Below are positions 4,500 to 61,331 of a stretch of DNA of 64,000 nt, piece after piece; the first letter of the stretch is position 1; the number at the start of each line of letters is the position of its first letter. This DNA comes from Streptomyces sp. HM190 (GTDB lineage Bacteria > Actinomycetota > Actinomycetes > Streptomycetales > Streptomycetaceae), in contig NZ_CP047318.1 in assembly GCF_009857135.1 (NCBI RefSeq), positions 1,178,001-1,242,000 of the forward strand. Direction: 5' to 3'. The position numbers and the translations under genes are program-made. The notes under the pieces are model-generated. The model ran no database searches, was not told where the DNA came from, and saw nothing but the letters and a program-made list of their open reading frames with translations.

Positions 4500-5076
4500 C
4501 ACGCGGCGCGCGGCCGGCCTGGAGCCCAGGGCGACCCCGGCGCCCACCAGGACGCTGCCCGCCGCCTGGGCGGCACCGTAGGAGCCGGTACCGACGAGGG
4601 GCGCGGTGCAGGCGGCGGCCACGGGACGAGGCCGGGCCTTGCGGCCGCCTCGTGGAGCGGGTCACGGCGGGGCCGGGTTCGCGGTGCGGGAGCGGGGACG
4701 GCACGGGCGCGCGTGGGACGACCTGCCACGGCTGGTCCTCGGTACGCGCACCTCGCGCCGGCGCGGATCGGAAAGGGGTGCCGCTGATGGCGGAGGCGGC
4801 CCGACCGGAAGGCCGCCCGTGACCCGGGCTGCCTGACCGGGCTCGGCGCGGCGCCTCCGGGAGGGCGCGACACGCCCGTCCCTGGCGCGCACGACGCACC
4901 GCCCGACCCGCGCGACGCACTCCCTCCCGGCCCGCGCGACACACCCCGCTCGGGCGTCGCGGCATGCTTCCACCGCAACCCCGGTCAGTTGTTCACTTGT
5001 CGTTTCCGCGTGCGCCTCGGCGCACCAGTACTTGTGGCACTGCGCACTGGCCGAATCCGTCCCAGGAGGCTCATTC
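4500..5076. other. Long gap with possible decayed transporter end
   Basis: No intact gene was recognised in these 577 bp. On the minus strand from about 4645 to 4497 an open stretch encodes an Ala/Gly-rich hydrophobic helix-like segment (GAAQAAGSVLVGAGVALGSR) ending in basic residues, like the last helix of an MFS exporter, but it has no start or body. From 4860 to 4960 there are diverged repeats around GCGCGACGCAC. A possible PHO box lies at 4991-5012. Confidence 0.4.
4991..5012 (+). promoter_or_regulatory. Possible PHO box upstream of phoD
   Basis: GTTCACTTGTC followed directly by GTTTCCGCGTG fits the 11-nt direct-repeat plan of the Streptomyces PhoP box. The first unit matches the first nine positions of GTTCAYYYR and the second is degenerate. 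It lies 65 bp upstream of phoD. Confidence 0.35.
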
Positions 5077-6666
5077 ATGTCACACCGTCCGCCGATCTCC
5101 CCGCCCGGCCGCCGCAGTGTGCTGCGCGGTTCCCTGGCCGCGTCGGCGGCCCTGGCCCTGCCCGGCTCGCTCGCGGCGGCTCCGGCGTTCGCCCTGTCGG
5201 GGCGGCCGCGGGCCGGATGGGGTGTGCAGGCCGGGGACGTGAGCGCGCACTCCGGTCTCGTGTGGGTGCGCTCGGACCGGCCGGCGCGCATGATCGTGGA
5301 GACGTCCGCGACCGAGTCGTTCCGCAACCCGCGCAGGTGGCACGGACCGCTGCTCGGCGCCGACACCGACTTCACCGGGACGACCCGGCTGCGCGGCCTG
5401 CCGGCCGGTGAGCAGATCCACTACCGGGTGCTCCTCGCCGACCCGGACGACCCGCGCCGCACCGGCGAGCCGGTGACCGGCACGTTCCGTACGACTCCGG
5501 TGAAGCGGCGCTCCGGCGTACGGTTCCTGTGGTCGGGCGACCTGGCCGGGCAGGGCTGGGGCATCAACCCGGACCGCGGCGGGTACCGCATCTTCGACGC
5601 CATGGGGCGGCTGGACCCGGACTTCTTCCTGTTCAGCGGGGACACGATCTACGCCGACGGCCCCATCGCCGCGACGGCGACGCTGCCCGGCGGCGGGACC
5701 TGGCGGAACATCACCACCGAGGAGAAGTCCAAGGTGGCGGAGACGCTGGCGGAGTTCCGCGGCAACTTCCGCTACAACCTGCTGGACGAGAACCTGAGGC
5801 GGTTCAATGCGCAGGTGCCGTCGCTCGTTCAGTGGGACGACCACGAGGTCACCAACAACTGGTACCCGGGAGAGATCCTCACCGACGCCCGCTACACGGA
5901 GAAGAGCGTGGACGTGCTCGCGTCCCGGGCTCGGCGTGCCTTCAGCGAGTACTTCCCCCTCTCCACGCTGCGGCCGGGCTCCCGCGAGGGCCGGGTGCAC
6001 CGGGTGATGCGCCACGGCCCGCTCCTCGACGTGTTCGTCCTGGACATGCGCACGTACCGCGACGCCAACTCGCCCGGCACGCAGACCACCGACCCGGTGG
6101 GCATCCTCGGCGCCGAGCAGTTGCGGTGGCTGAAGCGGGAACTGTCGCACTCCCGCGCCGTGTGGAAGGTGATCGCCTCCGACATGCCGCTCGGCCTGGT
6201 CGTGCCGGACACCGGCGACGGGAAGCCGAACATCGAGGCGGTGGCCCAGGGCGACCCGGGCGCGCCGCTCGGGCGTGAGCTGCAGATCGCCGAACTGCTG
6301 CGGTTCATCAAGCACCAAAGAATCACCGGGACGGTGTGGCTGACGGCCGACGTGCACTACACCTCGGCGCAGCACTACCAGCCGTCGCGGGCCGCGTTCA
6401 CCGACTTCGAGCCGTTCTGGGAGTTCGTCTCCGGGCCGCTCAACGCCGGTGCCTTCCCGGCGAACGCCCTCGACAACACGTTCGGCCCCGAGCGGGTCTT
6501 CATCAAGGCGCCGACCACGGCGAACGTGTCGCCCGCGGGCGGTTACCAGTTCTTCGGCGAGGTCGACATCGACGGCCACAGCGGGGAGTTGACGGTGCGG
6601 CTGCGCGAGCAGGACGGCACGGTGCTCTACACCAAGACGCTTCAGCCGGGGCTGGTGGGGCAGTGA
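5077..6666 (+). CDS. phoD: PhoD-type alkaline phosphatase, Tat-exported
   Basis: A 529-aa secreted phosphodiesterase/alkaline phosphatase of the PhoD (metallophosphatase) family, releasing phosphate from organic esters outside the cell. The N-terminus has a twin-arginine signal (GRRSVLRG, then a hydrophobic stretch ending in APAFA). An N-terminal beta-sandwich domain leads into the catalytic domain with WSGDLAGQ, LFSGDTIYADGP, QWDDHEVTNNW and LTADVHYTSA, which supply the metal ligands. The ATG at 5077 was chosen because AGGAGG lies at 5064-5069; an in-frame start at 5032 lacks one. A possible PHO box upstream suggests PhoRP control. Monocistronic, ended by the hairpin at 6715. Confidence 0.94.
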   Translation: MSHRPPISPPGRRSVLRGSLAASAALALPGSLAAAPAFALSGRPRAGWGVQAGDVSAHSGLVWVRSDRPARMIVETSATESFRNPRRWHGPLLGADTDFTGTTRLRGLPAGEQIHYRVLLADPDDPRRTGEPVTGTFRTTPVKRRSGVRFLWSGDLAGQGWGINPDRGGYRIFDAMGRLDPDFFLFSGDTIYADGPIAATATLPGGGTWRNITTEEKSKVAETLAEFRGNFRYNLLDENLRRFNAQVPSLVQWDDHEVTNNWYPGEILTDARYTEKSVDVLASRARRAFSEYFPLSTLRPGSREGRVHRVMRHGPLLDVFVLDMRTYRDANSPGTQTTDPVGILGAEQLRWLKRELSHSRAVWKVIASDMPLGLVVPDTGDGKPNIEAVAQGDPGAPLGRELQIAELLRFIKHQRITGTVWLTADVHYTSAQHYQPSRAAFTDFEPFWEFVSGPLNAGAFPANALDNTFGPERVFIKAPTTANVSPAGGYQFFGEVDIDGHSGELTVRLREQDGTVLYTKTLQPGLVGQ

Positions 6667-6714
6667 CCCGCACGGCCTGAAACGGGAGGTCGGCGAACCC
6701 GGCCCCCGACATGG

Positions 6715-6754
6715 GGCGGACGGCTCGGCAACACCGGGCCGTCCGCCGCGTTTT
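6715..6754 (+). terminator. Terminator after phoD
   Basis: GGCGGACGGC at 6715-6724 pairs with GCCGTCCGCC at 6738-6747, with partial pairing continuing inward around CAACA. GCGTTTT follows, giving an unusually clear U-tract. Confidence 0.75.
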
Positions 6755-6799
6755 CGCAGGTCACCGCCCGTTGTCAGTGGTCGCTCCTACGGTTCTCCC

Positions 6800-8257
6800 A
6801 TGACGCGATCTGTGCAGGCCGTGGCCTATACCCGACCCTCCGTGCTGGAGTCCGCGGCGGGCGGACAGCGGCTGGGGCTGGAGACCTCCCGGGGTGCGAC
6901 CCCGACGGGGTACCAGGACCATCCGCGGTTCTTCACCGGCTTCCTGACCTCTCCTCAGGTGGCCGCGGCCGGCCTGTTGGCGGTCGCGGACGTGGCGGCG
7001 GCCCGCTACTACCAGCAGCAGCTGCGGGCCTCCCTGGACCCGGTGGTGACGGGCAACGGGGACCGGCTGCGCTTCGAGTCGTTCTCCGGCTGCGGCGGGG
7101 TGTACGCCCGGCTCGACGTCCTGGAGCCGGGACTCGACGGGAGCGAGGTCGGCCACGGCACGACCAACGTGGACGTCAACAACCCGCTGCGCGAGGCGCT
7201 GTCCCGCGTCGGCTCCGACGATCCGCTGCATCTGCGGGTCGGCCCGGACGAGCTGGCGGTGACCACGCTGGACGGCCCCGTGGTGGAGAAGAAGGTGCCG
7301 TTGCCCGACCGCTGGCTGCGCGGTTTCGCCGAGGCGCAGGTGGTCGCCGCCGGGTTCGATCTGCGGGCCGAGCTGCCCGCCGCGGAGGCCGTTCGGTTCC
7401 TGCGGTCGCTGCCGCGCGGCGGGGCCCGTGGCGCGTCTCGGGGCGCCCAGTGGGTCGTGCCCTCGGGCCGGGTCCTGCGCCCGACGACGCGGCCGGTGCC
7501 CGGCGCGGTCTGCCTGCCCGGCCCGGAGCGGCTGGTGGCCCTCCAGCGGGTCCTGCGCCACGCGACCGCGTTGCGCGTCTACGGCCCGCCGGCCGCCGGG
7601 GCGGCGGGCCTGGCGAGTGCGTGGGAGGTCGAGCTGCCCGGCATGCGGCTCACCCTCACGCTGTCCCCGGAGGCCGCGCGCGGTTTCTCGGGGGAGGGCG
7701 GCGTGCTGGACGCGCTCGCCACCGACGAGGCCGCCGAGGACGCGGAGCTGATCTCGGTGCTCCTCGCCTGGGAGCCCCGCATCGACGTCGGCGACCTGGC
7801 CGCGTCCTCCGGCCTCACCGCCGAGCGGGTACGGGCGGCGCTGACCCGGCTGGGGACCTCGGGCCGCGTCGGCTACGACACCGCAGAGGCCGCCTACTTC
7901 CACCGGGAACTGCCCTACGACGCCGACCGCGTCGAGCGGCACAATCCGCGGCTCCGCTCGGCCCGCGGCCTGGTGGCCGCCGGGGCCGTCACCCTGGACG
8001 GCGCGCTCGGCACGGTGACCGCCGAGGACGGCCATGTCCACCGGGTCCGCGACGACGGGGGCACACTGAGCTGTTCCTGCCTGTGGTGGGCGAAGTACCG
8101 CGGCGGCAGAGGCCCTTGCAAACACGCGCTGGCGGTGCGGATGGTCCGCCGGGGCACGGACGCCGGGACCGGCGGGACACCGTCCCCCGGGGAGCAGGGC
8201 AGCACGACGACCGACAGGGAACCGAGCGGGACGAGCATCGACGGGGGTGCGCGATGA
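6800..8257 (+). CDS. SWIM zinc-finger protein
   Basis: A 485-aa protein with a SWIM finger near residues 424-441 (CSC, then CKH, giving CxCx(n)CxH). SWIM fingers bind DNA or proteins. The rest is a long domain without a recognised catalytic motif, similar in plan to E. coli YehQ-type proteins. No Shine-Dalgarno precedes the ATG at 6800, but TACGGT at 6788-6793 lies 6 nt upstream, so the mRNA is probably leaderless. The stop overlaps the next start (ATGA at 8254), so the two proteins are translationally coupled and probably act together. Function unknown. Confidence 0.88.
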   Translation: MTRSVQAVAYTRPSVLESAAGGQRLGLETSRGATPTGYQDHPRFFTGFLTSPQVAAAGLLAVADVAAARYYQQQLRASLDPVVTGNGDRLRFESFSGCGGVYARLDVLEPGLDGSEVGHGTTNVDVNNPLREALSRVGSDDPLHLRVGPDELAVTTLDGPVVEKKVPLPDRWLRGFAEAQVVAAGFDLRAELPAAEAVRFLRSLPRGGARGASRGAQWVVPSGRVLRPTTRPVPGAVCLPGPERLVALQRVLRHATALRVYGPPAAGAAGLASAWEVELPGMRLTLTLSPEAARGFSGEGGVLDALATDEAAEDAELISVLLAWEPRIDVGDLAASSGLTAERVRAALTRLGTSGRVGYDTAEAAYFHRELPYDADRVERHNPRLRSARGLVAAGAVTLDGALGTVTAEDGHVHRVRDDGGTLSCSCLWWAKYRGGRGPCKHALAVRMVRRGTDAGTGGTPSPGEQGSTTTDREPSGTSIDGGAR

Positions 8258-10971
8258 CGGCGACGACGCTGGTCAACGCGGTACGGGCGGGTAACACGGG
8301 TGACGTCGTCACCCTGGCGGACGGCATGACGGACGCCGAACGACGGGCGTGCATGCCCGAGTTGAAGGAGCTGCGCAAGAAGCTGCGGTCCGAGCCGTGG
8401 GGCTCGCCCCTCCAGCGCGCGTACCCGGCACTGCACGCGGCGGGTGCCGCCTGCCAGACGGGCGCTGCGGCGGTGGCCGACTGGATCGCGGGGTCCGACA
8501 TGCGCTGGCGGCAGGCGTCGGCGTCGGTCCTGATCGACGTGCTCGGTGACCGTGAGCCGCACTGGCTCTGCGACCTGGTGCACCGGCTGGCGGAGCGCCC
8601 GCTGACCGCGCAGGTGCCGTACGAGCTGATGTCCGGCCTGGTGAGGCTCGCGGGCTGTGCCGTGCCGACGTCCGAGACCTATGTGCGGGGCTGGATGGAG
8701 CACATCGGCCGGGCGCGCTGGAAGGCGGGCACCGTCATCGGCAACCTGCGCAAGGACCCGCACCTGACGGAGCTGGTCACCGCGCTGTTCGACATCGCGG
8801 AGATCGGCGCGCGCAGCGACTGGCGGTACGGCGAGGGGCTGGACAACTGGACCTACGCCCTCACCCAGCTCGCCGGGGAGGGGATCCTCGACCGCAAGAT
8901 CCTCGTCGACGGCTGTGTGTCCCGGTTGCTGCGCGGCGGCGGCTCCACGGCCGACAACAAGGTGTTCCTCGGCCTGCTGACCTCCCTCGACCTGACCCGC
9001 GGCGAGCGGTGCGAGCGGATCGCGGACTGGATGTCCCTGTGCGCGGACGCCCCCTCCGCGGTGGCCGGACACGCCCAGTCCGTGCTCGCCGACTTCGCCC
9101 TGGACGGCGAACTGGGGTCGCGCCGGCTGATCGAGATGTCCGGCGCCGTGTTCTTCCGCCCCGAGCGGCGGCTGGTCCGTTCCCAGCTGATCCTGCTCGG
9201 CAAGGTGCTCAGGCAGGACCCGTCCACCGCGGGCGCGCTGCTCCCCGTGGTCGCCCAGGCGTTCGGACACGAGGACACGGAGGTGCAGGAGCGGGCGCTG
9301 AAGCTCGTCGAGCGGCACATCGGCGACATCGCGGACGGCGACGCCGCGGACGGGGACGCCGCGCGTGAGGAGATCACCGGCGCTGCCGCCGATCTGAGCC
9401 CCGGCCTGCGGACCCGCGCCCTGGCCGTCCTCGGTGCCTCCCCCGCCGAGGCGTCCCCGGAGGTGTACGAGGAGCTGCTGCCTCCCGTCCCCCGACCGAC
9501 GCGGCTCCTGCCGGCGCCGGAGACGGCCGCCGAACTCGCCGAGGAGGTCAACGCGCTGCTGGCCTCGGACGGCGACACCAGCGCCTTCGAGCGGACGCTG
9601 GACGGGCTCGTACGCCATGCGCACCGGGACCGTGCGGCACTCGTGGAGGCGCTGCGTCCGGTGGTGGCGCGGCGATGGTGGGTGCAGACGCAGCCGACGT
9701 ACGTCGACCGGTACTTCCAGGAGTCGCCGCACGGCCTGGAGATCGTCCTGGCGTCGCTGTTCGAGCGGGTGCGTCTGTCGGTCCTGCACGAGGCGCGCTC
9801 GGACACGTCCGCGTCCGGAGGATGTGTGCACAGCGGCCTCGCCGGGGTCCGCGACGCCCGGCTGTGGGAGGTCGCCCACCGTGTCCGCACCGAGCCGCCG
9901 CCGTTCCTGCTGGCCACGCCGACCTGGAGCACCGGCTCGCTGGAGCCCGGGGACCTGGTGGCAAGACTCGACGCCTGTCGGCGGCTCGGGGTCCGGCCCG
10001 GTCGGGCGGACTTCGCGCAGGCCCTGCTGCGGGTGCGTCGCACCGACGCGGCCGCCTCGGAGTCCGCCGCCGTGGCCGCGCGCGAGCTGGGCACTCCGGA
10101 GGGCGACCGGCTGGCGGAGTGGCTGGCGACCGACGTGCCCGCCCAGCCCGTGCGGCGCGGCCGCACCGAGGGGCCGAGGGTCCTGGTGGAGTTCGGAGCG
10201 CTCCCGGAGCTGCAGAACGCGTCCTTCCCGCCTGAGGTCCACCGACTGGGACGCCCGTTGTCCGCGTCCGAGCACCAGGGCCGCTGGTACTGCTCCCACT
10301 GGGACGACTCCGAGTGGCGGCACTGGCTGGCGGTCGTGCCGGGGCGCCCGGAACTGGTGGCGGGACGGGTGCTGCGGGACATCTCGCAGGGAGTCGTCGA
10401 GGACACCGGGACCGGGTTCTCGTTCCTGCCGACGCTCGCCGAGGCGGAGGGCGAGACGGGCGAGGCCGTACGGCTGTGCGTGGTGTACGGACTGGGCGCC
10501 AAGCGTCCGGAGGACCGTCTCGCGGCCGTGGACGCCCTGCTGGTGCTGGCGGCCCGGGGGCAGCTCGACGTCGAGCAGGCCGGCGCCGACCTCGGGCAGC
10601 TGGCCGTGACCGGCTGTGTGAAGCCGCTGCGGATCGCCGAGGCGATACGCACGGCGGCGTCCACCGGCGCGTACGGCACGGCGTGGGCGGTCCTGCGAGC
10701 GGCCCTGCCGCACCTGCTCGCCGAACTCTGCGACGGGCAAAGCGGCAAGGAAGGCGAGACCAAGAGCCAGGTCGAGGGCGGTGGCAAGGGCCGTTCCCAG
10801 GCGACCACGCCGGTTCGGGGACTCGGGGAGCTGCTGGCCGTCGCCGCCGAATGCGTGGAGCGTTCCGGGGCGCGCGGAGAGCTGCCCCACCTCGATCTGG
10901 CGGCGGACCGGAAGGGCTCGTCCCGGCTGGTCACCGAGGCGCGGCGGCTGCGCGCGGCGCTTGCGGTCTGA
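8254..10971 (+). CDS. DUF6493-like large helical protein
   Basis: A 905-aa protein of unknown function that I assign from memory to the DUF6493 family, which often follows SWIM-finger genes in Streptomyces. It is rich in Leu/Ala helices arranged like HEAT repeats in the first ~450 residues (for example RSQLILLGKVLRQDPSTAGA). A central Trp/Tyr-rich segment follows (WYCSHWDDSEWRHW), then a helical C-terminus with a charged Lys/Gly-rich linker near residue 835. No signal peptide, membrane helix or enzyme motif is visible. The ATG at 8254 overlaps the SWIM stop. Frames opening further upstream are shadows of the SWIM gene. Confidence 0.8.
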   Translation: MTATTLVNAVRAGNTGDVVTLADGMTDAERRACMPELKELRKKLRSEPWGSPLQRAYPALHAAGAACQTGAAAVADWIAGSDMRWRQASASVLIDVLGDREPHWLCDLVHRLAERPLTAQVPYELMSGLVRLAGCAVPTSETYVRGWMEHIGRARWKAGTVIGNLRKDPHLTELVTALFDIAEIGARSDWRYGEGLDNWTYALTQLAGEGILDRKILVDGCVSRLLRGGGSTADNKVFLGLLTSLDLTRGERCERIADWMSLCADAPSAVAGHAQSVLADFALDGELGSRRLIEMSGAVFFRPERRLVRSQLILLGKVLRQDPSTAGALLPVVAQAFGHEDTEVQERALKLVERHIGDIADGDAADGDAAREEITGAAADLSPGLRTRALAVLGASPAEASPEVYEELLPPVPRPTRLLPAPETAAELAEEVNALLASDGDTSAFERTLDGLVRHAHRDRAALVEALRPVVARRWWVQTQPTYVDRYFQESPHGLEIVLASLFERVRLSVLHEARSDTSASGGCVHSGLAGVRDARLWEVAHRVRTEPPPFLLATPTWSTGSLEPGDLVARLDACRRLGVRPGRADFAQALLRVRRTDAAASESAAVAARELGTPEGDRLAEWLATDVPAQPVRRGRTEGPRVLVEFGALPELQNASFPPEVHRLGRPLSASEHQGRWYCSHWDDSEWRHWLAVVPGRPELVAGRVLRDISQGVVEDTGTGFSFLPTLAEAEGETGEAVRLCVVYGLGAKRPEDRLAAVDALLVLAARGQLDVEQAGADLGQLAVTGCVKPLRIAEAIRTAASTGAYGTAWAVLRAALPHLLAELCDGQSGKEGETKSQVEGGGKGRSQATTPVRGLGELLAVAAECVERSGARGELPHLDLAADRKGSSRLVTEARRLRAALAV

Positions 10972-11071
10972 TCCGGCCCACCGGCTGTCCGACCTGCCAC
11001 CACCCCACCGGTCTTCCAAACTGCAACAAAAGGGACGGAAGGATGCTTTTACCGGCCGGTCACAATGCGTT

Positions 11072-11081
11072 CGTGATCACG
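11072..11081. promoter_or_regulatory. Palindrome CGTGATCACG before the ACT-GNAT gene
   Basis: A perfect 10-bp palindrome with partly symmetric flanks lies 27 bp upstream of the ATG at 11108. It resembles a CRP-like half-site arrangement, but no regulator is linked. Confidence 0.3.
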
Positions 11082-11107
11082 CAACACCCCTCCTTCACAG
11101 TGACCAC

Positions 11108-12544
11108 ATGACTGCAGACATGTCTGATGTGACGCGGGCGAGGAACGGTCGCCCGGTGCGCCACTGGCGGCGGGCCGTGGTCGGTCTCGCCGCGCTCCTC
11201 GCGGCGGCGGCCGTGGCCGACGCGGTGGCGGGCCCCGCCGTGCGGGGCCGGGCCGGTGCGGCGTCGGCGGCGGTCGCGGCGGCCGTCGTGCTCGCCGCTG
11301 TCGGGTTCCACGCCCGGTGGACACGGCGCCACGGTCACGCGCCGCCCACGAGCGATACCGGCGCCCGGCCGTCGCTCCCCGCGGAGCGGGAGGCCGGGCC
11401 GGCCGGTGCGGGCGAGGAGACGGGCGGGGCGGAGGCCGTGGCGGGGGCGACCGTGCTGTGGCGGATGCGGACGACCGTGAGGGACGAACCGGGGTCGCTC
11501 GCGGCGCTGTGCACGGCGCTGGCGGCGCACCGGGTCGACATCCTGAGCCTGCAGACGCACCCGCTGGCCGAGGGCACCGTGGACGAGTTCCTGCTGCGGG
11601 CGCCCGAGGAGTTGTCCGCCGCGGAGATCAGCCGGTCGGTGTCCGGCGCGGGCGGCAGCGCGACCTGGATCGAGCGCGGCGACGCCCATGACCTGGTGGA
11701 CGCGCCGACACGGGTGCTCGGCCTGGCGACGCGTACGGCGTTGGACGCCGCGGAACTCCCCCTGGCACTGCGGCAGTTGCTCGGCCGCTGCACCATCCGC
11801 TCGCTGCCCGCCACCGCTCCCGGCTCGGGCCGGGACCAGGAGGGCGCCCCGGTCGAGGGGGCCCTGGAGGGCACGGTGATGCGGCTGCGGGCGCCCGAGG
11901 GCGGGACGGTCACGGTGGAGCGGCCGTATCTGCCGTTCACGCCCACGGAGTTCGCGCGGGCGCGGGCGCTGGTGGAACTGGACGCGCGGCTCGGGCCGCG
12001 GATCCCGCGCAGCCTGGACGTGCTGACACTGCCCGAGGGCAACGACATCACGGTGCGCCGGGCGGACGCCGGCGATCTGCGTGCGGCGAGGGCAATGCAC
12101 GAGCGGTGCTCGGCGCGGACGTTGAGCATGCGGTACCACGGGCCGGTGGGCGACGCGGACCGGTACCTCAAGCATCTGCTGAGCCCTCGCTTCGGGCGGA
12201 CGCTCGCCGCGCAGACCACGTCGGGGCGCCTGGTCGGACTGGGTCATCTGCTCTGGGACGGCGACGAGACGGAGATCGCGCTGCTCGTCGAGGACGCCTG
12301 GCAGCGGCGCGGTATCGGCAGCGAGTTGCTCCGCAGGCTGGTGGCCATGGCGGGCGACGCCGGCTGCGCGAACGTATACGTCGTGACGCAGTCGTCCAAC
12401 ACGGGGATGGTCGCGGCGATGCGGGCCCTGGGCCTGCCGCTCGACTACCAGGTCGAGGAGGGGACGCTGGTGATCACGGCCCGTCTGGAGGCCGTGCCGG
12501 CACACCGGGCCGAGGGTGCGGAGGGGCTCCGCAAGGGGCGGTGA
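11108..12544 (+). CDS. Membrane-anchored ACT-GNAT fusion protein
   Basis: A 478-aa protein of three parts. Residues about 20-65 contain two hydrophobic segments forming a membrane hairpin. Residues about 115-170 form an ACT-like ligand domain (VRDEPGSLAALCTALAAHRVDILSLQ). The C-terminal half carries a GNAT acetyltransferase with the acetyl-CoA loop VEDAWQRRGIGSELLRRLV and an RRADAGDLRAARAM opening. The ACT domain suggests amino-acid control of the acetyltransferase at the membrane; the acetylated target is unknown. The ribosome binding site is weak at both ATG 11108 and ATG 11120. A hairpin ends the unit. Confidence 0.85.
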   Translation: MTADMSDVTRARNGRPVRHWRRAVVGLAALLAAAAVADAVAGPAVRGRAGAASAAVAAAVVLAAVGFHARWTRRHGHAPPTSDTGARPSLPAEREAGPAGAGEETGGAEAVAGATVLWRMRTTVRDEPGSLAALCTALAAHRVDILSLQTHPLAEGTVDEFLLRAPEELSAAEISRSVSGAGGSATWIERGDAHDLVDAPTRVLGLATRTALDAAELPLALRQLLGRCTIRSLPATAPGSGRDQEGAPVEGALEGTVMRLRAPEGGTVTVERPYLPFTPTEFARARALVELDARLGPRIPRSLDVLTLPEGNDITVRRADAGDLRAARAMHERCSARTLSMRYHGPVGDADRYLKHLLSPRFGRTLAAQTTSGRLVGLGHLLWDGDETEIALLVEDAWQRRGIGSELLRRLVAMAGDAGCANVYVVTQSSNTGMVAAMRALGLPLDYQVEEGTLVITARLEAVPAHRAEGAEGLRKGR

Positions 12545-12594
12545 CTCCGCGCGAACGCCAGGGGACACGGAAGGCCGCCGAGGGAGGCGGAAAG

Positions 12595-12627
12595 CAGCGC
12601 GGGAGCCGTTGACGGGCTCCCGCGCTG
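12595..12627 (+). terminator. Terminator after the ACT-GNAT gene
   Basis: CAGCGCGGGAGCC at 12595-12607 pairs perfectly over 13 bp with 12615-12627 around a 7-nt loop, 50 bp after the stop. Confidence 0.75.
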
Positions 12628-12636
12628 TTCGCTGCC

Positions 12637-12775
12637 ACCACCGCGCTCCTGCTTGTCACCACCGCGCTCTCGCCGTCGGCGCTGCCACCGCCGCGCTCTC
12701 GCCGTCATCGCTGTCGGCAGCGCGCTCTCGCCGTCATCGCTGTTGTCACCGTCGTCGTGGCCGTCACCGCCGCAT
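12637..12775. repeat. 29-bp minisatellite-like repeat
   Basis: The core CGCGCTCTCG recurs at 12663, 12692 and 12721, an exact 29-bp period, with a diverged copy starting at 12642. It lies between the terminator and the end of the tetR gene. Confidence 0.7.
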
Positions 12776-12783
12776 CGGCGCCT

Positions 12784-13458
12784 TCACGGGCTCAGGCCCG
12801 CCGCCCGCTGGAGGCCGTCGAGGATCAGATCCAGCCCGAAGTCGAACTCGTCGCCGTAGTCGTAGCCGGGCCGCATGACGTGCTCGGTCGCGATCTCGGC
12901 CAGGTACGGGTACTCGCCGTCGCCGAAGCCGCTCATGATGGCCTCCGCCACCTCGGCGGTCCGCTCCGGGGTGTCGAAGGGCAGGGCCTTCTCCTGGAGG
13001 GCGAAGCCGTAGATGTAGCCGTCGAGGACCGACACGGCGTGCGCGGTGAGGGTGAGGGAGAAACCGGCCCGGCGCAGACAGCCGAGAACGGCGTCGTGGT
13101 GCCGCAGGGTTGCGGGTCCCGGCGTGGCCCGTGACGCCATCAGCCCGATCGACCAGCGGTGACGGGACAGCACACGGCGCATCGACGCCGCCCGCAGCCG
13201 CATCGCCTCCCTCCAGTCGTCGTCCGGGGAGGGCAGGTCGACCTCGTCGAAGACCAGGTCGACCATGCCGTCGAGCAGGTCCTCCTTGTTGGCGACGTGG
13301 TTGTACAGGGACATCGCCTCGACACCGACGGCCTCGCCGAGCTTGCGCATGCTGAGCGTCTCCAGGCCGCCGCTGTCGGCGAGCGCGACGGCGGCGCTCA
13401 GTACCCGCTGTCGGGTCAGCGTCTCGCGGGGCGGCTGCGGGGCGGTACGTCGCGTCAC
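12784..13458 (-). CDS. TetR-family repressor
   Basis: A 224-aa TetR regulator. The helix-turn-helix lies at about residues 25-60 ([32 protein letters not shown]). The C-terminal part resembles the tetracycline-repressor-like ligand domain (TetR_C_1 type: [20 protein letters not shown]). The start is GTG at 13458, 127 bp from the divergent quinone reductase gene. Three identical palindromes in that gap are the obvious operators, so it likely represses both itself and the reductase, with an electrophile or aromatic ligand as inducer (inference). Confidence 0.93.
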
Positions 13459-13501
13459 GGGGGACGGTCACTTCCTCTCGCGGTCTCCGGGCGTTGACGA
13501 G

Positions 13502-13554
13502 CTTACGGCGTAAGTGCTCTACTTACGCCGTAAGTGCTGCACTTACGGCGTAAG
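13502..13554. promoter_or_regulatory. Three tandem TetR operators on a 20-bp register
   Basis: CTTACGGCGTAAG occurs at 13502-13514 and 13542-13554, and its reverse complement CTTACGCCGTAAG at 13522-13534. Each is a 13-bp palindrome with a single central base. Their starts are exactly 20 bp apart, so all three face nearly the same side of the helix. Confidence 0.85.
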
Positions 13555-13585
13555 TCCAGCGGGACACCCGACGCGGGAGAAGACC

Positions 13586-14614
13586 ATGCGGAGCACCAGC
13601 CAGGCAGCGCGAGCCGAGGAGACCGGGACGATGGCGGCCGTCGTGCAGGAGCGCTACGGCACCGAGCCGGAAGCCGTCCTGCGGATGGCGCGGCTCGCCC
13701 GGCCGGCGCTCGGGCCGGGGCAGGTACGGGTGCGGGTGCGCGCCTCCAGCGTGGACCGCGGCACCTGGCACCTGATGGCCGGCCTGCCCTACGCCGTCCG
13801 GCCCGTGAGCGGGCTGCGCGCGCCCAAGCTGCCCAACCCGGGCCGCAACCTCGCCGGCGTCGTCGAGGCGGTCGCCCCGGACGTGACCGGGTTCGCGCCC
13901 GGCGACGAGGTCTACGGCACGGCGGCGGCCGCGTTCGCCGAGCACGCCGTCGCCCGGCACGACAGGATCGCCCCCAAGCCGGCCGGCCTGACCTTCGAGG
14001 AGGCGGCGACGGTCCCCGTCAGCGCGCTCACCGCGCTCCAGGCGGTTCGTGACCGGGCCCGGGTCCAGCGGGGCCAGGAGGTCCTGATCACCGGGGCGTC
14101 CGGTGGTGTCGGCACCTTCGCCGTGCAGATCGCCCACGCCCTCGGGGCGCGGATCACGGCCGTCGCGAGCACGGCCAAGCTCGACGCCGTACGGGCACTG
14201 GGCGCCGACGAGGTCGTCGACCACACCCGCGAGGACTTCCTCGCCGGCGCGCGGCGGTACGACGCCGTCGTCGACATCGCGGGCAACCGCACCCTGCGGG
14301 ATCTGCGCCGCGTCCTCACCCCACGCGGCCGACTGGTCATCACCGGCGGCGAGACGGCCGGCCGGTGGCTCGGCGGCACCGACCGGCAGCTCCGCGCACA
14401 GGCGCTGTCGCCGTTCACCGGACAGCACCTGGGGACGTTCATCTCCTCCGAACACGCCGACGGTCTGCGGGACCTGACCGTGCTCATCGGGGCGGGCACC
14501 CTGCGCCCCGTCGTGGACCGCGTGTACCCCCTCACGGAAGCCGCCGCAGCCGTCCGCCGCCTGCTCGACGGCGGCGTCACGGGCAAGCTGGCGCTCACCG
14601 TAGCCGGGGAGTAG
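13586..14614 (+). CDS. NAD(P)H quinone reductase-like MDR protein
   Basis: A 342-aa zinc-independent medium-chain dehydrogenase/reductase of the quinone oxidoreductase type. It has an N-terminal GroES-like fold (about 30-150) and a Rossmann domain with the cofactor loop ITGASGGVGTFAVQIA near residue 172. The zinc ligands of alcohol dehydrogenases are missing. ATG 13586 follows GGGAGAAG at 13575; an in-frame ATG at 13631 fits the usual N-terminus of the family (MAAVVQERYG) and cannot be excluded. Control by the divergent TetR through three operators suggests inducible detoxification of quinones or enones. Confidence 0.9.
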   Translation: MRSTSQAARAEETGTMAAVVQERYGTEPEAVLRMARLARPALGPGQVRVRVRASSVDRGTWHLMAGLPYAVRPVSGLRAPKLPNPGRNLAGVVEAVAPDVTGFAPGDEVYGTAAAAFAEHAVARHDRIAPKPAGLTFEEAATVPVSALTALQAVRDRARVQRGQEVLITGASGGVGTFAVQIAHALGARITAVASTAKLDAVRALGADEVVDHTREDFLAGARRYDAVVDIAGNRTLRDLRRVLTPRGRLVITGGETAGRWLGGTDRQLRAQALSPFTGQHLGTFISSEHADGLRDLTVLIGAGTLRPVVDRVYPLTEAAAAVRRLLDGGVTGKLALTVAGE

Positions 14615-14745
14615 CCGGACCCGGAGCCCTCGGGGCCCACGGGGCACCCGGAGCCTCCTGCGAGCCCTCCGCGCAGCCGGAGCCTCAAGCCCAGGGCCCG
14701 GTGGCCGGGGGAGCCACCCCGGCCACCGGGCCCTCGATCACCGCC

Positions 14746-15984
14746 TCAGCGGCCGGAGGCAGCCCCCAGGTCCGCCACAGGCCGTTCGGCGGCGACGCCC
14801 CTACCCGTGGTGGCGGTGTCGGCCGTTGCACCCAGCGCCCCGTCCAGGTCCGCCCACAGGTCGTCCACGTCCTCCAGGCCCACCGACATCCGCAGCAGCC
14901 GGTCGCTCACCCCGGCGCCCCGGCGGTCGGTCTCGTCCACGATGCGGTGGCTGATGGAAGCCGGGTGCTGGATCAGGCTGTCCACACTGCCGAGGCTGAC
15001 GGCGGGGGTGATCAGCCGGACGCCCGCGATGACGTCGTGCGGGTCGCCATGAACCTCGAAGGCGATCATCGCGCCGCCGACACGGGGGTAGTGGACCCGC
15101 GCCACCCGCGGGTCGGCGTCGAGGCGCCGGACCAGTTCCGCGGCGGTCGCGGAAGCCGCCCGGACCCGGACGGGGAGGGTCGCGAGGCCACGCAGGAGGA
15201 GGTAGCCGGCGAGCGGGTGGAGGACACCGCCGGTCGCGAAGCGTATCTGCCGCAGCCGTCCGGCGAACTCCTCGTCGCAGGCCACGACCCCGGCCATGAC
15301 GTCCCCGTGGCCGCCGAGGTACTTGGTGGCGCTGTGCAGGACGAGCCGGGCCCCCTGCTCGACGGGACGCTGGAGGACCGGTGTCGCGAAGGTGTTGTCC
15401 GCGAGGAGCGGGACCGAGCCACAGGAGTGGGCGAGGGCCCGCAGATCGAGTTCGGCGAGGGTCGGGTTGGCCGGGGACTCGACGAGCACCAGACCGGTGT
15501 CGGGCCGCAGCGCGTCCGCGACGCCGGCCGGGTCGACCCAGGTGACCTCGGAGCCGAGCAGCCCGGCGGTCAGGAGATGGTCGCTGCAGCCGTACAGGGG
15601 GCGTACGGCGACCACGTGGCGCAGGCCCAGGGAGGCGCGGGCGAGGAGCACCGCGCTCAGGGCGGCCATGCCGCTGGCGAAGGCGACGGCGCTCTCGGTG
15701 CCCTCCAGGCGGGCGAGGGCGGTCTCGAAACGGGCGACGGTCGGGTTGCCGAGCCGTCCGTAGATCGGAGTGCCCTCGGGTTCGGCGCCCTCGGTGGCGA
15801 AGGCGTCGATGCGGGCGGCCTCACCGCGGCTGTCGTACGAGGGGTAGGTCGTGGACAGGTCGATGGGCGCGGCGTGCAGGCCCTGGCGCGCGAGGTCGTC
15901 GCGGCCGGCGTGCACGGCCTCGGTGTCCAGCGCCCTCGGCGCGGTGCGTGCGGGGTCGTACGCGTGCGTGCTCGCTGAGTTCAT
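14746..15984 (-). CDS. Cys/Met-metabolism PLP enzyme (gamma-lyase type)
   Basis: A 412-aa fold-type I PLP enzyme of the trans-sulfuration family (cystathionine gamma-lyase, methionine gamma-lyase or cystathionine gamma-synthase). Key motifs are PIYGRLGNPTVARFE, AFASGMAALSAV for cofactor phosphate, and HSATKYLGGHGDVMAG with the Schiff-base lysine. The start was set at ATG 15984, where the family N-terminus begins; ATG 16002 is also possible and longer frames run into the lrp gene. It is divergent from an Lrp/AsnC regulator with 60 bp between starts, so that protein probably senses an amino acid and controls this enzyme. Confidence 0.9.
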   Translation of the reverse strand: MNSASTHAYDPARTAPRALDTEAVHAGRDDLARQGLHAAPIDLSTTYPSYDSRGEAARIDAFATEGAEPEGTPIYGRLGNPTVARFETALARLEGTESAVAFASGMAALSAVLLARASLGLRHVVAVRPLYGCSDHLLTAGLLGSEVTWVDPAGVADALRPDTGLVLVESPANPTLAELDLRALAHSCGSVPLLADNTFATPVLQRPVEQGARLVLHSATKYLGGHGDVMAGVVACDEEFAGRLRQIRFATGGVLHPLAGYLLLRGLATLPVRVRAASATAAELVRRLDADPRVARVHYPRVGGAMIAFEVHGDPHDVIAGVRLITPAVSLGSVDSLIQHPASISHRIVDETDRRGAGVSDRLLRMSVGLEDVDDLWADLDGALGATADTATTGRGVAAERPVADLGAASGR

Positions 15985-28648: not shown

Positions 28649-30195
28649 TCACACCGGCAGCAACCGGGTCACCAGTTCCGCGAGGCGCCGCGCGTTGCGG
28701 CAGGAGTGCATCTCGACGACCTCGGCGTAGACGAGCGCGGCGGAGTCGCCCGTGGACCACAGCTCGGGTGACTCGGGGTTGAGCCAGTGGACGCGGCGGG
28801 CGCGGGCGGCGACGCGGCGCAGGGCGGCCGCGTTGGGGTCGAACCCGTTGGTGCGGGCGTCACCGAGGACGATCACCGAGGTGCGCGGCCCCACGGCGTC
28901 GATGTGGTGCTCGGCGAACTCCCCGAGCGCGGTCCCGTAGTCGCTGCTGCCGTGCCAGCCGCTGATGGTCGCCTCCTCGGCGATCCGGCGGCCGAGTTCC
29001 GCCGGGTCGGCCTCACCGGTGGTGACGAGGTGCGTGACCTCGTCGACCTTGTTGACGAAGGCGAAGACCCGCACCTTGCTGAACTGGTCCCGCATCGCCT
29101 GCACCAACAGCATCGTGAAGTTCGCGAACCCCGCGACGGAACCGGACACGTCGCACAGCAGCACGATCTCCGGGCGGGCGGGCCGGTGGCGCCGGTAGGC
29201 CGGGCGCAGCGGTACTCCCCCGGTGGACAGCGAGCGGCGCAGAGTGCGCCGGATGTCGATCCGACCCCGCGCCGCCCGGCGCCGCCGGGCGGCGAGGCGG
29301 GTCGCCAGTCTGCGGGCCAACGGCTGGACCGTGCGGCGGAGTTCGACGAGCTGTTCGCGGTTCGCGACGAGGAAGTCGACCTGTTCGGCGCTGCGGGCGA
29401 TGCCCCGCTGGGCGATCAACGCCGCGCCCCGCCGTTCGGCGACCCGTCGCCGGGCCTCGGTACGCACCCGTTCGCGGAAGTCCTCGATACGGCGCCGGAT
29501 CTCGTCCGCGTCCAGCCGGTCGGTGAACCCGCCGGATCCGGAACCGCCCGAGCCCGCTCCCGCCGCGCCCGTACCGGCGCCGTTCCCCGGCCCGAAGCCG
29601 GAACCACCGCCGCCTCCGCCGCCTCCGCCGGCCCGCTGCGCCGCGAGGATGCCCGCGAGCAGCGTCTGGGGCCGCAGCCGGTCCAGCGTCTGGTGGGCCG
29701 ACCAGCCGTCCGACTCGGACGACGTGCCGTACCGGCCGAGCAGTTCGACCGCCTCACCGGCGAGCCGGTTGAGGGCGGCGACGTCACCGGCGGCGAGCGC
29801 GGCGGCGATCCGCGCGCGCAACTCGTCCCGGTCCGCGGCCGGTGCCTCCCACGCTCCCGTCAACTCGCCCACACCGAGCGGGAAGTACAGCTCGAAGGCC
29901 GCGTCGAACACGGCCCGCTGGCGGTCGGCGCGCAGCAGTGCCGCCGCCAGGCCCGCGCGGATCCGCTCCCGGTCGGCGAGGCCGAGCACCTCCAGCACGG
30001 CCGCCGCGTCCACGGTCTCGCCGGGCCCGATCCGGATACCGTGACCGCGCAACGTCCGCACGAACCCCGTGAGCCGCTCGGTGAGCGGCGCCCCGGAGGA
30101 GACGGCGCCCGAGGAGGCCGTACCGGCGGAGGCCGCGGAGGGCACCGTGCCCGGTGAGGCCGCTCCCGTGGATGCCGCGGCGCCGTCCGCGGCGG

Positions 30196-30199
<4 letters not shown>
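28649..30199 (-). CDS. VWA (CoxE-like) domain protein
   Basis: A 516-aa partner of the adjacent MoxR ATPase. The N-terminal ~190 residues are helical, a Gly-rich linker (about 195-230, including a run of nine glycines) follows, and the C-terminal von Willebrand A domain has the MIDAS motif DVSGSV in VLLCDVSGSVAGFANF. CoxE-like VWA proteins act with MoxR ATPases in assembling or activating metalloenzymes or other complexes. ATG 30199 overlaps the moxR stop by 4 nt (ATGA). No target enzyme is encoded next to the pair. Confidence 0.92.
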
Positions 30200-31092
<893 letters not shown>

Positions 31093-60308: not shown

Positions 60309-60401
60309 CGTGTCCTCCACGCTCGTCGCCCCCGGTCCCGGCCTGTCCCCACCGACGCCAAGGACCCTAGCCGCAGGCACCGACAATCCCGGTCAGGCGG
60401 C

Positions 60402-60473: not shown

Positions 60474-61157
60474 TCAGCCGAGGTTCGGGATGGTCCAGTC
60501 GATCGGCTCGTGGCCCTGCCGGGCGACGGCGTCGTTGATCTGGGTGAACGGGCGGGAGCCGAAGAACTTCTTGGCCGACAGCGGCGAGGGGTGCGCGCCC
60601 TTGACCACGATGTGGCGCTCCTCGTCGATGAGCGGGAGCTTCTTCTGCGCGTAGTTGCCCCAGAGCACGAAGACGGCCGGGTCGGGCCGGTCGGCGACGG
60701 CGCGGATCACGGCGTCGGTGAACTTCTCCCAGCCCTTGCCCTTGTGGGAGTTCGCCTCACCGGCGCGGACCGTGAGCACCGCGTTCAGCAGGAGCACGCC
60801 CTGCTCGGCCCACGGCATCAGATAGCCGTTGTCCGGGATCGGGGTGCCCAGTTCGGCCTGCATCTCCTTGTAGATGTTCCGCAGGGAGGGCGGGGTCTTC
60901 ACACCGGGCCGCACCGAGAAGCACAGGCCGTGGCCCTGGCCCTCGCCGTGGTAGGGGTCCTGGCCGAGGACGAGCACCTTCACCTGCTCGTACGGCGTGG
61001 CGTCAAGGGCGGCGAAGACCTCCTCGCGCGGGGGGTAGACGGGACCCTTGGCTCGCTCCTCCTCGACGAACTCGGTGAGTTCCTTGAAGTAGGGCTGCTG
61101 CAGCTCGTCCCCCAGGACCCCGCGCCAGGACTCGGGCAGCATGGCGATGTCGGTCAC
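60474..61157 (-). CDS. ung: Uracil-DNA glycosylase
   Basis: A 227-aa family-1 UDG that removes uracil from DNA. The water-activating loop is LVLGQDPYHGEGQGHGLCFSV, and the minor-groove/Leu loop HPSPLSAKKFFGSRPFT carries the catalytic histidine. GTG 61157 is preceded by GGAGG at 8 nt. Cytoplasmic base-excision repair. A strong hairpin ends the transcript. Confidence 0.96.
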   Translation of the reverse strand: MTDIAMLPESWRGVLGDELQQPYFKELTEFVEEERAKGPVYPPREEVFAALDATPYEQVKVLVLGQDPYHGEGQGHGLCFSVRPGVKTPPSLRNIYKEMQAELGTPIPDNGYLMPWAEQGVLLLNAVLTVRAGEANSHKGKGWEKFTDAVIRAVADRPDPAVFVLWGNYAQKKLPLIDEERHIVVKGAHPSPLSAKKFFGSRPFTQINDAVARQGHEPIDWTIPNLG

Positions 61158-61331
61158 GTCAACTTCCTCCGGTGTGCGCTCACTTCACGACCGCGATGCG
61201 CGCGGCCATGGACGGCCGCGCGAGGCGCGGCCGCCGTCAGAGCACAGAACCTACAGGCGTCCACTGACAATCGGGTCCGCCCGCCGGGGACACCGGCCGG
61301 ACCGGCGGACGGTCGGGCCCGTGGCCGGGTC

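Follow-up and report, generated by a model that had tools for sequence, protein, structure and literature searches.

A SWIM-finger protein with a predicted PCNA fold and its predicted alpha-solenoid partner behind a DNA-damage-type promoter motif in Streptomyces sp. HM190

In mycobacteria, regulation of DNA damage genes by PafBC has been demonstrated, and a passage of PMC11804915 reports that PafBC is activated there by single-stranded DNA. The promoter consensus of that regulon, as given in a passage of PMC5656591, is TTGTCRGTG-N8-TAnnnT (tTGTCRgtg-N8-TAnnnT). For Streptomyces, according to a passage of PMC9380542 (2022), a first search hinted at a lack of conservation of the PafBC motif in Streptomyces venezuelae, and a RecA/LexA-independent response had still to be demonstrated. 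Here we describe a two-gene unit at positions 6800 to 10971 of a 64,000-nucleotide stretch of DNA, hereafter the window, which covers positions 1,178,001-1,242,000 of the single 7.76 Mb contig of Streptomyces sp. HM190. The unit encodes a SWIM-finger protein and a large helical protein, and it touches three described systems: the PafBC regulon, with which it shares a promoter motif; retron type XIII, in which a SWIM protein is likewise paired with a large protein; and the yeh-like clusters, which also have a SWIM protein. The pair is unannotated, its SWIM protein has hundreds of relatives, and the analysis suggests for it a part in the DNA damage response that can be put to the test. Its features in the window are the following.

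6771 to 6793, plus strand: PafBC-type, RecA-independent DNA-damage promoter motif TTGTCAGTG-N8-TACGGT, an exact match that ends 6 nucleotides before the ATG
6800 to 8257, plus strand: SWIM protein gene, ATG start, 485 amino acids, with a predicted PCNA-fold region, a winged helix and a SWIM finger
6926 to 7678, plus strand: predicted PCNA-fold region, residues 43-293 (AlphaFold model; VIA match to 2hik_B)
7721 to 7915, plus strand: winged-helix region, about residues 308-372 (weak DprA_WH and HTH_PafC matches, both below cutoff)
8018 to 8137, plus strand: SWIM zinc finger, residues 407-446 (PF04434, above cutoff)
8254 to 8257, plus strand: ATGA stop-start overlap that joins the SWIM gene to the DUF6493-type gene (open reading frame reading)
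8254 to 10971, plus strand: DUF6493/DUF7824/DUF7825-type gene for a predicted alpha-solenoid, ATG start, 905 amino acids (relatives above cutoff, predicted model)

A first-pass annotation, made from the letters of the window, had proposed that the two genes overlap by four nucleotides and form a coupled unit of 1,390 residues with no known enzyme motif. Both open reading frames are present and have the ATGA in common, and neither protein was matched to an enzyme family by Pfam or NCBIfam at E<=1, NCBIfam listing nothing at that threshold for either. In the 485-amino-acid protein the Pfam SWIM family scored above its cutoff (26.5 against 19.6 bits, residues 407-446). The matches of the 905-amino-acid protein all fell below theirs (DUF6493 15.3 bits, cutoff 25; DUF7824 22.3, cutoff 27.5; DUF7825 14.8, cutoff 27.4); since its Asticcacaulis counterpart passed all three (90.7, 85.3 and 65.4 bits, respectively), the DUF6493-type name holds for the window protein by homology. 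We read 125 related loci: 40 drawn from a pool of about 54 genomes of the Streptomyces survey plus three other genomes, five from plasmid records, and the best 80 of a scan that took a single genome for each species, four of the 125 being duplicates. Of these loci, 121 had a detectable DUF6493-type gene, which in 117 came immediately after the SWIM gene in the same orientation. As 472 of the 531 stretches that matched the pattern in the genome scan encoded a relative of the SWIM protein, and the partner followed directly in those 117 loci, chance can be ruled out as the origin of the pair. The four loci without a partner are L043, the remnant L052, L132 (at a contig end) and L067, a retron discussed below. 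The exact four-nucleotide overlap was found in 56 of 121 loci, with the start codon chosen mechanically; in L127, L135 and L136 the mechanical search took the second of two tandem DUF6493-type genes, and L072 overlaps oddly. Such tandem genes after one SWIM gene were seen in L065 (10380-15319), L127 (9035-14307), L135 and L136. The distance matrices of the two proteins were strongly correlated (Mantel r 0.93, 110 rows, reached in 0 of 999 permutations). The annotation had also named the unit its best candidate for an undescribed system, and literature searches on DUF6493, and on PafBC together with SWIM, turned up no paper.

The promoter motif was first compared with chance in the window itself, which holds five matches with at most two mismatches, three of them exact, against 1.03 expected. 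Setting aside the retron, the four duplicates and the seven loci from outside the actinobacteria leaves 113 of the 125 loci. Within 45 nucleotides upstream of their SWIM genes, the best match was exact in 67, within one mismatch in 86 and within two in 94, while at two mismatches none of 111 second genes and only 4 of 5650 shuffled upstream regions carried it. In 93 of the 94 motif-bearing loci the motif ends 6-8 nucleotides before the start codon, a spacing that agrees with the earlier suggestion that the first gene is probably leaderless. The composition, the pairing and the promoter motif of the unit can be regarded as solid. Over the whole genome 28 exact sites were found, and 94 sites within one mismatch as opposed to 9 for the reversed pattern. 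Like the SWIM gene, recA, uvrB, dnaX, ogt and a radA-like gene have such a site 6-7 nucleotides before their starts, and Pfam identified among ten proteins downstream of motif sites RecA, UvrB, a DnaX-type clamp-loader ATPase, an O6-methylguanine-DNA methyltransferase, a protein of RadA-like architecture and two DEAD-box helicases, the remaining three being HAD, DUF4253 and YjbR proteins. The motif thus marks out a repair regulon in this genome. All of 61 Streptomyces genomes carried exact sites (1503 in total, median 22, range 11-44), compared with 0-1 control matches per strand. Of 30 Streptomyces recA loci, 29 have an exact site 7 nucleotides upstream of the start of the gene; the thirtieth, at a contig end, had been mis-registered, and it too has an exact site 7 nucleotides before its recA. 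A gene for a PafC-type regulator is present in the genome of strain HM190 (98.7 bits, cutoff 32). A regulon of the PafBC motif type therefore appears to be present across Streptomyces, although PafBC regulation, demonstrated in mycobacteria, is here deduced from sequence. The 61 genomes bear on the question raised in that passage of PMC9380542, and S. venezuelae may or may not be among them. Two more exact motifs stand in the window on the minus strand, at 61248-61270 and 60364-60386; one of the two lies 90 nucleotides before an open reading frame (60474-61157) that reads like a uracil-DNA glycosylase, and the other before an unnamed frame.

The SWIM protein was modelled by AlphaFold from 54 sequences with a mean pLDDT of 84.3 over the whole protein and a pTM of 0.82. 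A Foldseek search with the model gave a best E of 2.2e-8 and 458 matches at E<=0.001, and all of the 50 listed were sliding clamps, nearly all of them PCNA. With VIA, which re-aligns only Foldseek's own matches, the 50 matches listed were all PCNA (Z 16.3-18.3), the Sulfolobus PCNA chain 2hik_B aligning over 213 of 244 residues with a Z of 18.3 and a root-mean-square deviation (rmsd) of 3.2 A. We regard a PCNA fold in this region as a strong prediction. Bacteria normally use the three-domain DnaN as sliding clamp, and a PCNA fold was not expected in a bacterial SWIM protein. Like PCNA and the 9-1-1 clamps, the protein has the predicted two-domain clamp fold over residues 43-293; unlike them, it shows no detectable sequence similarity to the clamps, and the clamp-like region is fused to a winged helix and a SWIM finger. 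A DprA_WH match at E<=1 was obtained for 46 of the 54 homologues, and in the finger C425 and C440 are invariant and C427 and H442 nearly so. A shared fold with PCNA does not by itself establish function, and folds of this kind also serve proteins that form no ring, such as herpes UL42. In a viral structure library the PCNA and DnaN clamps ranked first, with a herpesvirus processivity factor and a poxvirus late transcription factor also among the matches. It could be argued that the protein is a DNA-binding regulator, whose winged helix and SWIM finger bind DNA sites and whose clamp-like region serves for dimerisation or ligand binding and does not act as a clamp; the winged-helix matches in the protein and its homologues, the UL42 precedent and the two viral factors would all fit this. 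Against this, the clamp-like region holds 47 of the 86 near-invariant residues and the winged-helix region 10, and residues 308-372 are acidic on average (net charge -5.1), which would be odd for a DNA reader. We consider a regulator improbable.

The partner was modelled with higher confidence (mean pLDDT 91.5, nearly all helix), and we are confident in its prediction as an alpha-solenoid. Specific solenoid relatives were sought and rejected, only generic helical-repeat matches being returned (Foldseek TM <0.2; best VIA Z 13.6, rmsd 15). Taking the two models together with the promoter motif, we propose that the pair consists of a DNA-binding protein of PCNA fold that is induced by DNA damage and a solenoid adaptor, acting together at damaged or foreign DNA, and we hold the chances of this proposal to be about even. 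After DNA damage, PafBC would start leaderless transcription of the two genes; the SWIM protein would bind DNA through its PCNA-type fold, winged helix and SWIM finger; the alpha-solenoid made from the overlapping second gene would bind the SWIM protein and, where DNA is damaged or foreign, work as an adaptor or effector, helping repair or holding growth. The sequences themselves show the structure of the genes, the conservation of the motif and of the pairing, and the difference in rate; the PCNA fold and the solenoid are predicted by modelling; and control by PafBC, induction by damage, binding of DNA, formation of a complex and the outcome for the cell are all inferred. A role in repair or as a checkpoint is favoured by the promoter motif and by synteny, and the pair may represent a way of answering DNA damage that is undescribed in bacteria.

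Several observations weigh against this proposal. With a profile of the 54 members no PCNA chain was found at E<=10, and the members between them matched 21 Pfam families, of which none was a PCNA family; with no sequence similarity to PCNA, common descent of the SWIM protein and PCNA is therefore not shown. The helices presumed to face the hole carry only a slight positive charge (on average +0.4, +1.1, +0.8 and +2.4 net). The seven copies outside Actinomycetota lack the motif, their best matches having 5-7 mismatches (0 of 7 within two). A search of 20 copies, chosen since most have no clear motif, for upstream LexA boxes of the types tried gave none. Several of the 28 exact sites in the HM190 genome have no plausible gene start nearby. 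The SWIM gene is also patchy for a repair gene, being present in 56 of 150 Streptomyces genomes, that of strain HM190 included, and genes were missing or split in 5 of 20 loci (L043, L044, L049, L050 and L052), loci which had been picked to include broken copies, so that they give no rate, and in which assembly errors are possible.

The closest relative with a described system around it is the SWIM protein of retron type XIII. Against the PADLOC model SWIM_XIII the window protein scored 172 bits (E 3.5e-51), and it is a distant homologue of the retron protein by sequence, the homology extending over the clamp-like region, the winged helix and the finger. Identity to the Methylobacterium retron protein is 30%, and across the 11 proteins aligned it is 25-30%; the retron protein carries an extra insert. 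The Methylobacterium bullatum locus L067 is a retron XIII by its proteins, which in gene order match WGR_XIII/HEAT-ARM_XIII, SWIM_XIII (706 bits) and RT_XIII (584 bits). In the window pair the gene order is reversed, the partner is of the DUF6493 type and not WGR_XIII, and the genome of strain HM190 has no reverse transcriptase, RVT_1 giving no match at E<=1 in a search that was positive in 4 of 14 control genomes. Neither the reverse transcriptase nor the WGR protein of L067 was matched near a stand-alone pair, L067 itself being the only hit among the 125 loci, although a very distant reverse transcriptase could be missed by the one retron query that was used. The 905-amino-acid protein matched nothing in PADLOC at E<=1, and its hhalign probability against the L067 WGR protein, the retron partner that matches WGR_XIII and HEAT-ARM_XIII, was 1%. 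No Rfam match for an msr-msd RNA was obtained in the window, though Rfam may hold no model of retron type XIII. With neither a reverse transcriptase nor a WGR partner, membership of the pair in the retron was ruled out. As the pair lacks a reverse transcriptase, has a partner not detectably related to the WGR protein and differs in gene order, what the retron and the stand-alone pair have in common is one homologous protein. It might still be supposed that the pair is a remnant of retron type XIII, the effectors left behind when the reverse transcriptase was lost, as the SWIM_XIII match and the genome without RVT_1 would allow. The partner, however, is not detectably that of the retron, and pairs that stand alone are known from several phyla, with neither the L067 reverse transcriptase nor its WGR protein matched in their vicinity and with purifying selection acting on them, which makes this very unlikely. 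Homology to a protein with a predicted PCNA fold suggests, in turn, what the SWIM protein of the retron does; searches of the literature for retron type XIII with SWIM, and for WHSWIM, found no paper. A bolder form of our proposal would have the pair as a damage-specific bacterial sliding clamp analogous to the eukaryotic 9-1-1, in which a PCNA fold joined to a winged helix and a SWIM finger is controlled by PafBC and served by a dedicated solenoid, the same clamp-like protein having been recruited into retron type XIII. We think this unlikely, though less so than a regulator; were it true, retron type XIII would be clamp-based too.

The best 80 of the 472 relatives from the genome scan are mostly actinobacterial, together with two Sphingomonas, Hellea, Candidatus Obscuribacter and a planctomycete. 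In a phylum-wide sample the PADLOC model, a more distant query, gave matches at E<=1e-10 in 8 of 296 genomes. Nine plasmid records contained a SWIM-protein match, the Diaphorobacter and Asticcacaulis copies among them. Upstream of the pair in 55 of the 125 loci, all of them Streptomyces, stands a phoD-like gene, named from reading and located at 5032-6666 in the window; queries with the TetR and ADH neighbours for downstream synteny had no match in the loci. Relative to the window proteins, the amino-acid distance of the partner exceeds that of the SWIM protein by a factor of 2.39 (median of 101 loci; interquartile range 2.08-2.73), and in the 51 of these loci that have the phoD-like gene the median distances were 16.1% for the SWIM protein, 43.8% for the partner and 21.3% for PhoD. 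Four comparisons put dN/dS at 0.15-0.17 in the SWIM gene and at 0.26-0.34 in its partner, so that purifying selection acts on both genes, though less strongly on the second.

These data bear on the possibility that the pair defends against phages or mobile elements once DNA damage triggers it, in which case the SWIM protein would sense abnormal DNA and the fast-evolving solenoid would recognise or act. The patchy presence across Streptomyces genomes, the faster divergence of the partner and the distant homology to the retron SWIM protein (172 bits, where a true retron protein reaches 706) favour such a role. Further support comes from the Diaphorobacter plasmid copy, which adjoins a site-specific integrase, and from neighbours of non-syntenic copies, namely a DpdE-like helicase (L104, 3510-6176), a Septu PtuA-like protein (L115, 5144-7444) and mads3-like proteins (L135, 1525-4814). 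Scattered PADLOC matches, to 94 families, were obtained for 106 of 137 listed neighbour proteins at 24 chosen loci, counts that come with no background rate, and of 20 of these neighbour proteins taken singly 4 had matches; no second PtuA-like member was located. Unlike a shifting defence island, however, the Streptomyces pair often keeps to one syntenic site beside the phoD-like gene, and the dN/dS values give no sign of gene-wide positive selection. No copy of the SWIM protein was found in phage records, nor in viral contigs by a scan sensitive to close relatives only, and the retron XIII SWIM protein had no match in viral contigs either. We hold a defence function to be possible, but less likely than the proposed response to DNA damage.

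The first-pass annotation had further suggested that the pair and a MoxR-VWA pair in the same window are the two halves of one machine, of the kind known from the yeh cluster, with SWIM, WGR/HEAT-like, MoxR and VWA parts. The MoxR gene (30199-31092, minus strand) and the VWA_CoxE gene (28652-30199, minus strand) are real, and similar types of parts do lie within one window. This link did not survive a comparison of 149 other Streptomyces genomes, of which 24 had both the SWIM and the MoxR gene, 31 only SWIM, 32 only MoxR and 62 neither (odds ratio 1.5, P=0.29), MoxR orthologues being counted in the 57 of 67 genomes with a best E <1e-140 and the 10 with only distant matches being dropped. Moreover, a complete cluster with a SWIM gene of its own lies elsewhere in the HM190 genome, as follows.

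Genome 5380637 to 5388985 (5.38 Mb; locus L170, about 6637-14985), MoxR arm divergent: yeh-like cluster SWIM-DUF5691 / AAA_5-DUF5682-VWA_CoxE

That the window pairs are two halves of such a machine is thus extremely improbable. The SWIM protein of the yeh-like cluster is a different one, with its finger at residues 67-91 and not at the C-terminus, and it has different partners at a separate locus. The two nevertheless share the promoter motif in Streptomyces. It stands before the SWIM gene of the yeh-like cluster as an exact match in the HM190 genome; 37 Streptomyces loci were found, and of the best 30 of them 29 have it there within one mismatch. This cluster too appears to be damage-regulated. 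As the cluster carries the same motif, it is shared regulation, and not shared parts, that connects both kinds of SWIM module, and Streptomyces appears to put two different kinds under the same damage-type promoter. In 23 of the 30 loci a motif also faces the divergent MoxR arm.

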